Below, one piece after another: positions 26,617 through 31,177 of a DNA stretch of 64,000 nucleotides (within the stretch, counting starts at the first letter, position 1; each line of letters begins with the position of its first letter). The DNA lies in contig NZ_QVFV01000003.1 of the NCBI RefSeq assembly GCF_004212215.1, positions 1-64,000 on the forward strand. The letters run 5' to 3'. Under the pieces are notes generated by a model, which did not search any database, had not been told where the DNA came from, and was given only the letters and a program-made list of their open reading frames with translations. Position numbers and translations under genes: made by a program. Source of the stretch: Leptolyngbya iicbica LK (GTDB taxonomy: Bacteria; Cyanobacteriota; Cyanobacteriia; Phormidesmidales; Phormidesmidaceae).

Positions 26617-27444
26617 TTAATAAGGCGCTTGCCGCGGCTGAAATTGCATCGGGTTGAAATCAAAGAGCTCGGTCGCCTGGGACAAGCCACCGTGATGGAT
26701 GCGTCCGGCCAAGAGTTTGCCGTGCTCTGCCCAGACTAAGCGATCACCATCCAGCTCGGCCCATTCCCAATCGGGATAATTTTGGGTCGTGCCCGAGGCG
26801 GGATGGCGGAGTTGATGCTCGTCCCAATAGCAGCCTTTGCCGACGGGCGCTCCCACTTCGGCATGGGCGATTTTGCGCAAGCGCCAGCCGTGACCTAAGG
26901 GCTTTTCGAAAATATCTTGACTCTGCCACTTCGCTATTTCTCGCTGCTCTAGCAATTGCCAGCCATCTCGTAGCAAACGGGGATAGTAAACCCCAGTACA
27001 TTCAGCACCAAAATAAGTAGAGGGCTGAAACTTCAGATCGCGGCGCAGTTTGTTGGCATGGTTGAACAAGGCTTCGTCATGACAGCCATTGAGCCAGTAA
27101 CGGGTGTGGCCGGTCCACAAGCCCCCGCCCTGCCAACAATCGCCCTTAGGAAATAGCGTCAATGCCTTGAGGTAAGGCGCTTGGGAAATCGCGGTCCACG
27201 ATCCTTGCGCCTCCGATTGCCAGTGGCCATTCATGGCAAAGTAGATCAGGTATTGGCCATCTGGCGAGAGATCGCTGCGGCGCTCATAAATACGGCCTTT
27301 GAGCCATTGCCCTAGCTGAAAGGTATCTTGGCGGCGATCCCACAAAATTGTCGCTACCTGTTTAGACGGACCCCGCCGAATGATGACCCCCAGTGGTGCC
27401 TGCGGAGCCAATAAACCATGGATGCGAGCGGGAAACTGGCGCAT
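26617..27444 (-). CDS. Conserved hypothetical protein linked to the gas vesicle genes
   Basis: 275 residues with no signal peptide or membrane segment. The composition is rich in Trp and Gly, with short motifs such as SDLSPDGQYLIYF and DWEWAELDGDRLVWAEHGKL that recall beta-propeller blades. I do not recognise a named family. The start ATG at 27444 lies 41 bases after gvpJ on the same strand, so cotranscription with gvpJ is likely, which may mean an accessory role or mere proximity. The enzyme gene downstream is 87 bases away. Confidence 0.65.
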   Translation of the reverse strand: MRQFPARIHGLLAPQAPLGVIIRRGPSKQVATILWDRRQDTFQLGQWLKGRIYERRSDLSPDGQYLIYFAMNGHWQSEAQGSWTAISQAPYLKALTLFPKGDCWQGGGLWTGHTRYWLNGCHDEALFNHANKLRRDLKFQPSTYFGAECTGVYYPRLLRDGWQLLEQREIAKWQSQDIFEKPLGHGWRLRKIAHAEVGAPVGKGCYWDEHQLRHPASGTTQNYPDWEWAELDGDRLVWAEHGKLLAGRIHHGGLSQATELFDFNPMQFQPRQAPY

Positions 27445-27485: not shown

Positions 27486-27830
27486 TCAGTCTTCTTGCGA
27501 TCGCAATGATTTCAGCTCTTGTTCCAAGCTTTCGATGCGGGATTGCAGTTGTTCATTGGCGGTCAAGAGTTCCTGCGATCTCGCACTCAGATACGGATCG
27601 TTTTCCCACCAGTTGATGCCCATTTCACGTGCCTTATCGACTGATGCGACCAGCAAACGAATGCGAATGGTGAGCAGTTCTGTCGAACCGACCGAGACGG
27701 AAATGTCGCCTGCAATGACAATGCCCTTGTCTAGTACTCGTTCTAAAACATCGACCAAAGTGGAACCTTGGGTCGCGGTGGCCATTTGGCGATTGGCACT
27801 TGAAGAACGCGATAAAGATTGGCCAGTCAT
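27486..27830 (-). CDS. gvpJ: Gas vesicle protein GvpJ
   Basis: 114 residues of the GvpA/GvpJ family. The core LVDVLERVLDKGIVIAG-DISVSV-STELLTIRIRLLVASVDKAREMG is GvpA-like. It is followed by INWWENDPYLS and a C-terminal coiled-coil tail rich in Gln, Glu and Leu, which separates GvpJ from GvpA. It is a minor component thought to act in nucleating the gas vesicle shell. ATG 27830 is chosen because AAAGGG lies just upstream; an in-frame upstream ATG at 27872 lacks this. Same strand as gvpN, 230 bases downstream of it. Confidence 0.92.
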   Translation of the reverse strand: MTGQSLSRSSSANRQMATATQGSTLVDVLERVLDKGIVIAGDISVSVGSTELLTIRIRLLVASVDKAREMGINWWENDPYLSARSQELLTANEQLQSRIESLEQELKSLRSQED

Positions 27831-28060
27831 GATTGCCCTTTTGTGCAGCAGTGGTTCAGAGACCACAAACAAAGTTGGAAAATTTTATGAGAGAAGTATT
27901 TGATTGAAACCCTCAGATGATTGAGTGAGATCGCCCCAATTGTGAGGCACTGACCAAAAATCATGGCAAATCATTTACGTGCCTTAAGAAAACTAGCCAG
28001 GGATCAGCATCAATGACAACTCATATTTACCCACTTGGCGAGCACTTGCAATGGCGGAAT

Positions 28061-29326
28061 CTAGGACTCCTCTGGCACTAAACCATAAATCGCTGGTTTG
28101 CCCGCACCGTTTTGTTTTTGTAAGTAACCGGCCTCGACCAGAGATCGCAAAGCATCGACTGCTTTAAACCGCGTCAAAGAAAGTTCCGACTCAATTTCTG
28201 ACAAAGAGGCCGATTCCCTCGCGGTCAAAAAGGTCAAAATGCTGGACTCGATTTCGTCGAGTTCTGGGGCTGAGGCACTATCATCACCAGCCTCATCAGC
28301 CTCCTCTGAAGCCTTAGCCGATTCTTTAGCCTTACTTTTTGTCGTAGATTTGCCCTTAGAGCCCTTCGTCTCGACTGGCTTATCTGCCTCGGGTTGGGGG
28401 CTGACATCAGTGCTGTTACTCTCTGGGCCCAACACGTCTGCGCTGGCAGTTAACTCATTAAATAAATCCCATAAAGTATGGGTTGCCGGCGACAGTTCAT
28501 TGGTGACGCGAGATAGCAGAACATCACTACAGACGTCTCGAAAATCAGCATCTTCCGTCATCATCGCGACGCCATGCTCATGGCAAATATTGGCGATCAT
28601 CAAGCTAGGTCGCAGGCTCGTTGCGCTGTGGTTCCCCATTTGGGATTTAAACGCTTTGACCAAGCGTACGATCATCAGCGCATCAGCTGGTTCAATCCCA
28701 ACTTTTTGGATCAGAATTTGCTGCTGAGTGAGCTCGTCAGGTTCGGGCATGTGGATGGTAATCAAACGATCCAGCAGGGCATCTTGAGTGCCGTGCACCC
28801 CCGCATACTCTTCGGGGTTAGAGGTGAAAATTGCCCGAAAATGGGGATTGACCCGCAAATATTCTGGTCGATGACCGCTCGGGGGCAGCACCAGCAATTT
28901 TTCTTCTAGGGCCGAGAGTAAAACGTTGTTGACCTCGGGACGCGAGCGGTTGAACTCGTCATACACCAGAGTGAACCCTTCTCGGCAGGCTAAGGTTAAG
29001 CGCGAATCGACCCAGTTGTGTCGCAGTTCATCTTCAACTTTCACGACACTGTGGATATAGTTGTCGACGACCTTTTTGCGGGTATAGCCAGACTGATTGC
29101 CAATCAAATCTGAGGTCTTGAACTCATCGTCACCAAACACCAGCATGATGGGCCGACTTAACAGATCAGCGAGGTGCAGGGCGAGGGTCGTTTTGCCAGT
29201 ACCGGCAGGGCCGCGCAGGTGTACCGAATACCCAGATTGGAGATACCGCAGGGCACGGCGGGCAATGCGTTCGACGGCGGGGGTACTGACAAAGTTGCGG
29301 GGGCGGGCTTGTAGGACGGTGCTCAC
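28061..29326 (-). CDS. gvpN: Gas vesicle AAA+ ATPase GvpN with C-terminal winged-helix-like extension
   Basis: 421 residues. The first ~290 residues are a MoxR-like AAA+ ATPase with Walker [10 protein letters not shown] (39-47), Walker B VYDE (121-124) and sensor-like TSNPEEYAG. GvpN is needed for efficient gas vesicle assembly. Beyond the ATPase lies a Ser/Lys/Glu-rich linker (about 295-355) and then a ~66-residue domain (about 356-421) with LSEIES and [11 protein letters not shown], resembling a winged helix. The same domain ends the neighbouring GvpC. The ATG overlaps the gvpC stop by 4 bases (29323-29326), implying translational coupling. The extension makes this protein longer than the GvpN proteins I remember. 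Confidence 0.9.
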
Positions 29327-30330
29327 AGAACGGCTTCCTCTTGAATACGGTAGGTTCTATCTTTTTGAACGATGAGCTCTTTTTGAATTAGCGATCGCAG
29401 GGCATCCACCGCTTGGAATCGATTAATTCCCAGAGTGGATTCGATTTCGGTCAAACGCGCACCGTCATTGTGGTCTTGCAAATACTCAAAGACCGCTTCT
29501 TCGGTGGGCACAGCAGCCTTAGCGGGAGTCGCTTTTGGCGCTGCCGGAGCCGGAGCTTTAGCGCCATTTGATTTAGCCACCGATTTCATCGTTGCTGGTT
29601 TAGTGGCAACCGGTTTTGCTTTTGTAGGAGACTTGCGGGCCGCTGCCGGTCGACTTTTTGCTGCCGATTTCGGTGGTTTCGGAGCCGCTGGCGCTGCTTG
29701 CGGGACGGCATCACCCCAGACAGACTGCCTTAAGTCTTCGCGAAAGTCGCGCATCTGCTGCCGATAAACCGTGAATTCTTCGCGCAGGGCTTCCACATCT
29801 TCTGTTAATGCTTCGCGATCGCGATGCCGCTGAGCCCGATCAACGACTGCCGTCGCCTCTCGATTTTCCTTGATCTCCGCCAGATAATCGGCAACGACGT
29901 CTTCGAGTTCAACGACATATTCAGACAAGGCTTGCGCTTGGCGACTGCGCATCACGGCGCGATCGTGCATGTGACCCGCCAACTTTTCCTGAGTGGCTTG
30001 TTGCAGCTCAAACAGGTCTTCTTGATTGGCCGCCCGTTGATCTGCCACAGCGCTGCGCAGCTCAGCATCAAACTCCTTTAATTGCTGAGCGGTTTGCCTG
30101 GCCATCGCCCGACGTTGTTGCTCGACTTGGGTCAAATATAAATTGGTTTCGTCCTGCACTGCGGCATAATGCTCAGCCAAGGACGCTCGCATTTGAGCAG
30201 CGTCGGCTTCGCGGCTCTGCTGGCAGTGCGCTAATTCTTCCAACACCGTCGCCCGGCGCTGAATCACTTCTTCTTGGCGCGTCGCACGCGCTGTTTCCCA
30301 TTCATCTCGGAGTGCCGCCACAGCCGTCAT
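29323..30330 (-). CDS. gvpC: Gas vesicle shell protein GvpC-like, with Lys-rich linker and winged-helix-like C-terminus
   Basis: 335 residues from ATG 30330 (TTG 30351 and GTG 30321 are alternatives; AGGGAG sits directly before the ATG, so GTG 30321 is better spaced). Residues ~1-205 are a long helical region with degenerate repeats of roughly 33 residues rich in Gln, Ala, Arg and Glu, for example [15 protein letters not shown]. It ends in [11 protein letters not shown], which matches the typical GvpC ending FRQDLFVSIFG. GvpC binds the outside of the vesicle and stiffens it. A Pro/Ala/Lys linker follows, then a ~60-residue domain with LTEIES and [11 protein letters not shown] that is homologous to the GvpN tail. 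Position between gvpA and gvpN agrees with the standard gene order. Confidence 0.85.
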
Positions 30331-30552
30331 CTCCCTAATAAAACTCTGCAAAGTGTGGTGAAAGATCTCTACCGATTTCTACAAGGGCTTCACTCCATAT
30401 TTGGAGTAAGAAAAAACATCTATTCGGCAACCTGTGAAGACCTGATAGAGAAGACTTCACGAGGCTAGAAATCCTGTGTGAACGAATCCCACAGTTCAGC
30501 TTCAAAGATGGGAAAACCAGTAGACAAACTCGAACAATCTCAAACAATGAAT

Positions 30553-30593
30553 GTTTGGGAGGAAGCAAGCGGTATGGCCAACTCCTCCCAAAC
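30553..30593 (-). terminator. Hairpin between gvpA and gvpC
   Basis: A perfect 11-base inverted repeat, GTTTGGGAGGA (30553-30563) and TCCTCCCAAAC (30583-30593), with a 19-base loop, begins 27 bases after the gvpA stop. A shorter competing pair, CAAACA/TGTTTG (30541-30546 and 30552-30557), overlaps its distal arm. Such a structure could partly terminate or stabilise the abundant gvpA message. There is no strong U-tract. Confidence 0.6.
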
Positions 30594-30619
30594 CAGGTTA
30601 ATTAAAACCGTAAACCTAA

Positions 30620-30838
30620 CTAGGAGGCAGGAACGGCAGCTTGAGCCGTCAAACCAACTGCTTCGGCATACTTCAAATAGGTCTCGACAGAGGCGATGAC
30701 AACGCGAGCTTCAATGGCTAGCAGCTCAATACCAACGAGCGATACGCGAACCCAAGCATCAACTACGATACCTTTGTCGAGAATCCGATCAACAACTTCT
30801 GCCAAGCTGGACGAAGAGTTTACTTTTTCAACAGCCAT
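30620..30838 (-). CDS. gvpA: Major gas vesicle structural protein GvpA
   Basis: 72 residues, [20 protein letters not shown]..., with the highly conserved core [22 protein letters not shown] and [20 protein letters not shown]. This is the small hydrophobic protein that polymerises into the ribbed gas vesicle wall. Start ATG 30838 is supported by GAGG nine bases upstream and by the family N-terminus; an upstream ATG at 30853 only adds five non-conserved residues. It is the first gene of the cluster, followed by a hairpin before gvpC. Only one gvpA copy is seen in the window. Confidence 0.97.
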
Positions 30839-31177
30839 GGTGATAAACCTCAAAATCTGTTTGATTCAGGAAATGTGAAATCTGTTGTTCACAGGCTCAA
30901 GAGAACTGTGCAGTGGGAACAACACACTTCATGTTTTGCACAGATTTATGTTGCCCAGCCGTTATGAGAACTCACCATGATTTACAGATCAAAATCATTC
31001 AGCAACAAACCTTGACAATGTCAGGGCACGCCCGGGCAGATTTTCAGGGGACGCTCAGGCACGTCTCACAAATACTGTTTACGATTACTTCAGCAGGGCT
31101 GTCGTTGAGGCAGTCGCTAGCTTGTTCTGAAAGTCAGTCAGCAAAGCGTTTTATTTTCCTTGCGGCATTCCTAACCT
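30839..31177. other. Divergent promoter region between gvpA and the DUF4079 gene
   Basis: About 340 bases with no gene, which must carry the gvpA promoter (minus strand) and that of the rightward DUF4079 gene. I could not identify reliable promoter boxes or operators. Confidence 0.5.

Follow-up and report, generated by a model that had tools for sequence, protein, structure and literature searches.

The 64,000-nt stretch of the Leptolyngbya iicbica LK genome analyzed here, referred to as the window, carries gvpA, gvpC, gvpN, and a gvpJ-like gene, all on the minus strand. The gene for the major shell protein, gvpA (30620..30853), matches NF006874 at 137 bits, over the cut-off of 100. Between it and gvpN lies gvpC (29323..30330), which encodes 335 aa from an ATG, or 342 aa from an alternative TTG start at 30351. 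The gvpN gene (28061..29326) has a GTG start and encodes the 421-aa AAA+ ATPase of gas vesicle assembly; its AAA+ core, aa 12-274, matches TIGR02640 with 387 bits against the curated cut-off of 266.8 (E = 3e-116), and no other protein of the genome is over that cut-off. Read directly from the sequence, the stop of gvpC and the start of gvpN overlap by 4 bases, GTGA (29323..29326), an arrangement that probably couples their translation. The gvpJ-like gene (27486..27872) encodes a minor shell protein with 57 bits to PF00741, for which GvpJ is the best NCBIfam match, at a score under the GvpJ cut-off. The gvp genes of this genome are scattered, with A, C, N, and J in the window (27486-30853) and two GvpL/GvpF genes on contigs C9 and C1. 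Flanked by the gvpJ-like gene and a type I phosphodiesterase gene is a 275-aa open frame (26617-27444, minus strand) with no Pfam match at E <= 0.001.

The helical rods of GvpC are positioned on the outer vesicle shell, and vesicle elongation requires GvpN. The window GvpC consists of a helical rod, a linker, and a tail. It has no Pfam GvpC match, and a PDB sequence search with the whole protein gave nothing useful. It is identified by local alignment with untailed GvpC proteins, with z = 10.4 to Nostoc and z = 5.4 to Dolichospermum, and by an end motif, FRxDLxxSxxG, that is common to all of these and after which the Leptolyngbya linker, then the tail, begin. The 33-residue repeat is faint, offset 33 scoring -0.12 where shuffles average -0.48 (SD 0.15), and the top score is at offset 51.

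The tail of GvpN is encoded at 28070..28270 (minus strand, about aa 353-419, tail profile E = 2.2e-20) and that of GvpC at 29332..29526 (minus strand, about aa 269-333, E = 2.3e-29). The preliminary description held these two ends to be homologous, counting 16 identities in 22 positions of the stretch that it quoted, and both the homology and the exact count are borne out. It also took that stretch to align without gaps, which is correct; to the left of it, one residue is gapped in the optimal alignment. Chance is excluded as the source of the likeness because the whole-tail alignment reaches a score of 86 where shuffles average 22.7 (SD 4.2, maximum 50 in 2000 shuffles), giving z = 14.9. Searching the window genome with the tail profile finds only the two gvp tails as strong matches (E = 2e-29 and 2e-20), with the next match at only 0.03, so the tail is not a domain shared with other proteins throughout this genome. 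Weak third matches that we opened in other genomes were ordinary MarR or NB-ARC proteins.

Both tails can be called winged helices with confidence on the strength of profile matching and structure models. The GvpN tail matches Pfam TrmB (PF01978) with 29.3 bits, over the cut-off of 25.6, and the GvpC tail alone scores 15.7 bits, under it, while at E <= 0.1 the TrmB profile picks up 53 of 55 aligned tails drawn from GvpC and GvpN together. AlphaFold2 predicts the same fold for the two, in the order H-H-H-E-E, with a pLDDT of 88.8 for the GvpN tail and 86.8 for the GvpC tail. Three helices and a two-stranded wing are thus found in both models, and structural comparison with the PDB agrees, with Z = 11.9 for the GvpN tail and Z = 11.7 for the GvpC tail; Zalpha, MarR, ArsR, and IclR domains are matched at Z 10-12. 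The winged-helix character first suspected from the letters alone is therefore upheld.

The question is then whether these domains contact nucleic acid or protein. One early suggestion was that they bind DNA or RNA and so couple the assembly of vesicles with the nucleoid or with gvp expression. The fold and the nearest structural matches, MarR, IclR, and Zalpha, are those of DNA-binding domains, and the nearly invariant R36, with which the recognition helix begins, is together with an Arg at position 44 compatible with nucleic-acid contact. However, a winged-helix fold alone shows no function, and the face of the recognition helix, its outward-facing residues assigned from known winged-helix geometry rather than from coordinates, has a different character. 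The helix consensus begins with N, S, or T; a hydrophobic residue, as in F37, stands at position 37 in 95% of the tails on GvpC and 85% of those on GvpN; an acidic one, as in D41, stands at position 41 in 95% of the tails on GvpC, where most of those on GvpN have D or N; and K and R are almost absent from the face. Among regulator domains of the same genome taken as controls, 8 rows were legible, the remaining rows aligning too poorly to read, and none of the 8 is hydrophobic at position 37. Measured against these 8 legible controls only, the gvp tails lack the basic or polar recognition-helix face of a DNA-binding regulator.

The linkers bear on the same question. A Lys-rich linker had been described for each protein, and for GvpC (29506..29712, minus strand, about aa 207-275) the description is apt, the linker being Ala/Pro/Lys-rich with 17% K and a net charge of +13. 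The GvpN linker (28253..28456, minus strand, about aa 291-358) is instead acidic, a low-complexity stretch with 11% K, 25% D/E, and a net charge of -9. Relatives follow suit: GvpN linkers have a median net charge of -13 and are negative in 60 of 62 cases, including where GvpC has no tail, and GvpC linkers are neutral to basic with a median of +3. Taken together, the surface residues and the linker charges favor protein contact over DNA contact. Going by these residue patterns, DNA binding by the tails appears unlikely, and the fuller proposal, in which contact with DNA or RNA couples assembly with the nucleoid or with gvp expression, we consider quite improbable.

To see how far the tail extends, 390 genomes of the class were surveyed with thresholds of E <= 1e-40 for GvpN and E <= 0.001 for the tail. 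GvpN is present in 180 of them, and a tail match in 131, so the tail is not confined to Leptolyngbya iicbica. About 95 genomes have at least two tail matches, as compared with the 180 GvpN-bearing cyanobacterial genomes. In the two-tail loci that were read directly (n = 51), one tail is on GvpC and one on GvpN. G335, of Nostocales family f32, has a tailed gvpC (L163:1480-2187) that does not adjoin gvpN but lies about 6 kb downstream of it; this genome has both tails, although the F and D positions are lost in its GvpN tail. In L041 the GvpN tail is apparently split over short frames just after the gvpN frame, probably by a frameshift in the metagenome assembly.

There are exceptions. Kaiparowitsia, Pegethrix, Elainella and their relatives, and also G082, in which GvpN stops at the end of its core, have a tailed GvpC and an untailed GvpN. 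The reverse, a tailed but diverged GvpN with an untailed GvpC, is seen for the majority of the Nostocales GvpN proteins that were examined; G193 and G014 likewise combine a tailed GvpN with an untailed GvpC. Neither tail occurs in loci that, from their sequence, we take to be Dolichospermum-like, Microcystis-like (f23), and Cyanobium-like (f5). Because such one-tail lineages exist, a strict partnership of N-tail with C-tail is not the whole story. Some of the GvpN proteins that have no winged helix (L061, L107, and L109) end in a short conserved motif, ESLI.LLE......EDDL, which is possibly a linear binding motif. In the Microcystis-like and Cyanobium-like genomes (L114, L115, L117, and L118), GvpC, encoded upstream of gvpN, has in the winged-helix position a different C-terminal helical module of about 60 residues with ..NDRDRVRDLLARGANSLKVDPSDILNALL.., for which Pfam gives nothing above cut-off.

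A tree of 121 tails groups mainly by protein, with 7 changes of N/C label against about 40 in shuffles, although the alignment is short at 64 columns and many forks are unresolved. This is consistent with one early copying of the tail followed by losses. Gene conversion keeping the tails of one genome alike has little support, since the tree splits mainly by protein and the N-C distance is 1.01 within genomes versus 1.08 between them. The two copies have fared differently: the GvpN tail evolves about 2 times as fast, with a mean distance of 1.15 versus 0.61 for the GvpC tail, and has been lost repeatedly. There is a suggestive pattern in which the GvpN motif decays once the GvpC tail is lost, but L113/G335 contradicts it and most of the cases come from one clade. 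The pace and losses of the GvpN tail would suit a neutral passenger that spread to the neighboring gene by tandem duplication and was kept by drift, as would the adjacency and overlap of gvpC and gvpN. Planktothrix can be cited in the same sense, its aerotopes having shown no difference in size or abundance whether GvpC was long or short (PMC5259702); the same paper gives a shorter GvpC for planktic strains. Drift does not, however, produce conservation as strong as that of the GvpC tail, which spans many families; where a locus carries both tails, R36, L46, and Y59 are each present in 100% of GvpC tails and D41 in 91%. We accordingly rate a passenger origin of the pattern as very doubtful.

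The GvpC tail is also fully conserved in lineages with an untailed GvpN, to the same degree as where GvpN is tailed. Each tail can persist where the other protein has none, so pairing of N-tail with C-tail is not the sole function. Nor do the two tails co-vary beyond phylogeny, the partial correlation being 0.02 with GvpN core distance removed, and 803 of 2000 permutations being as high. These observations would also be accommodated if the tails share a third partner to which both bind, such as GvpF/L, GvpV, GvpW, or GvpJ, and GvpC and GvpN come to one assembly complex independently of each other. In Halobacterium salinarum, self-association has been shown for the C-terminal domain of GvpC, as has binding to GvpN and GvpO, and to F, H, I, and L besides (PMC9372576). 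A third partner accounts for the exceptions nearly as well as docking does; we nonetheless place it on the unlikely side.

The best reading, from sequence features and by analogy with the haloarchaeal system, is that the tail serves in protein docking, is under its tightest constraint on GvpC, and would let GvpN meet GvpC. That a shared tail might serve to bring the two proteins together had been proposed at the outset, and it is plausible and the favored interpretation. The homology and fold of the tails, their distribution, the pattern of their residues, and the charges of the linkers are what the analysis shows; from these we infer binding partners, competition, and an effect on assembly as follows. 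A single TrmB/MarR-type winged helix, present at both C-termini in many cyanobacteria, would have given up nucleic-acid binding for a role in protein docking. On its flexible neutral-to-basic linker, the GvpC tail would contact accessory Gvp proteins as well as the tails of further GvpC molecules. The GvpN tail, on an acidic linker, would offer the same kind of surface, by which the AAA+ motor could bind GvpC, and the opposite charge of the linkers may aid heterotypic pairing of N-tail with C-tail; it speaks against this that GvpN linkers keep their acidity even opposite an untailed GvpC. Alternatively, the GvpN tail may compete with the contacts between GvpC molecules at sites of shell growth. 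The model as a whole, in which retooling of the winged helix gives the motor its reach to the coat, we hold tentatively, at a little less than even confidence. A bolder version is that GvpN bears a duplicate of the contact domain of GvpC and, at the growing rib, displaces the contacts between GvpC molecules; the outer cage would then open and let the ATPase add GvpA at that site. We think this version unlikely; if true, the motor imitates the coat that it must remodel. A domain common to GvpN and the coat protein is a direct, testable handle on how GvpN meets the growing vesicle. In engineered vesicles, the tail could double as a natural anchor. The Anabaena flos-aquae type cluster, the basis of much of the structural and engineering work, does not have the tail.

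The preliminary description knew of no earlier account of the tail, which is nearly right but overlooks a short similarity between GvpC40 and GvpN. In 2017, a stretch of 28 residues in the C-terminal part of Planktothrix GvpC40 was noted to share 64% identity with the GvpN of that genus, and a match of 60 residues to GvpC of Geitlerinema was noted as well (PMC5259702). Very probably this is the same winged-helix tail, noted there in one sentence for one genus, with no domain, fold, distribution, or function named. Anabaena PCC 7120 GvpN is described only as bearing an N-terminal AAA domain (PMC7204071), and the tailed GvpN of Nostoc sphaeroides is annotated plainly as GvpN. Among the papers listed from the openly searchable literature, none joins gas vesicles with "winged helix", and the fold, breadth, and docking model of the tail appear to be new.

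As to known domains, the gvp tails share with TrmB, MarR, and IclR (PF01978, PF12802, and PF09339) the H1-S1-H2-H3-S2-S3 fold, with MarR and IclR structures aligning at Z 10-12. They differ in having no sensor or dimerization domain, in being attached to gas vesicle proteins, and in the hydrophobic and acidic face of the recognition helix. Also among the structural matches are the archaeal Rpa2 winged helix (PDB ID: 9f26, in the PriS-PriL complex) and ScpB (3w6j), small winged helices that make protein contacts; their host proteins are unrelated to Gvp, and a shared use would be by inference. A Halobacterium GvpC (L185:1173-2321) has at its end a ROS/MUCR-type zinc-finger Pfam match of 28.3 bits, over cut-off, a second DNA-binding-type fold that ends a GvpC. 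The H. salinarum GvpC is thus alike in carrying a small DNA-binding-type domain at its C-terminus behind a long charged linker, although its fold is the ROS/MUCR zinc finger, its linker is acidic, and haloarchaeal GvpN has no matching tail. Pulldown with GvpN or GvpO there brings down GvpC as a monomer and not a dimer (PMC9372576). By analogy, the cyanobacterial winged helix may do on GvpC what the haloarchaeal C-terminal domain does, with the copy on GvpN serving as the motor's access to the coat.
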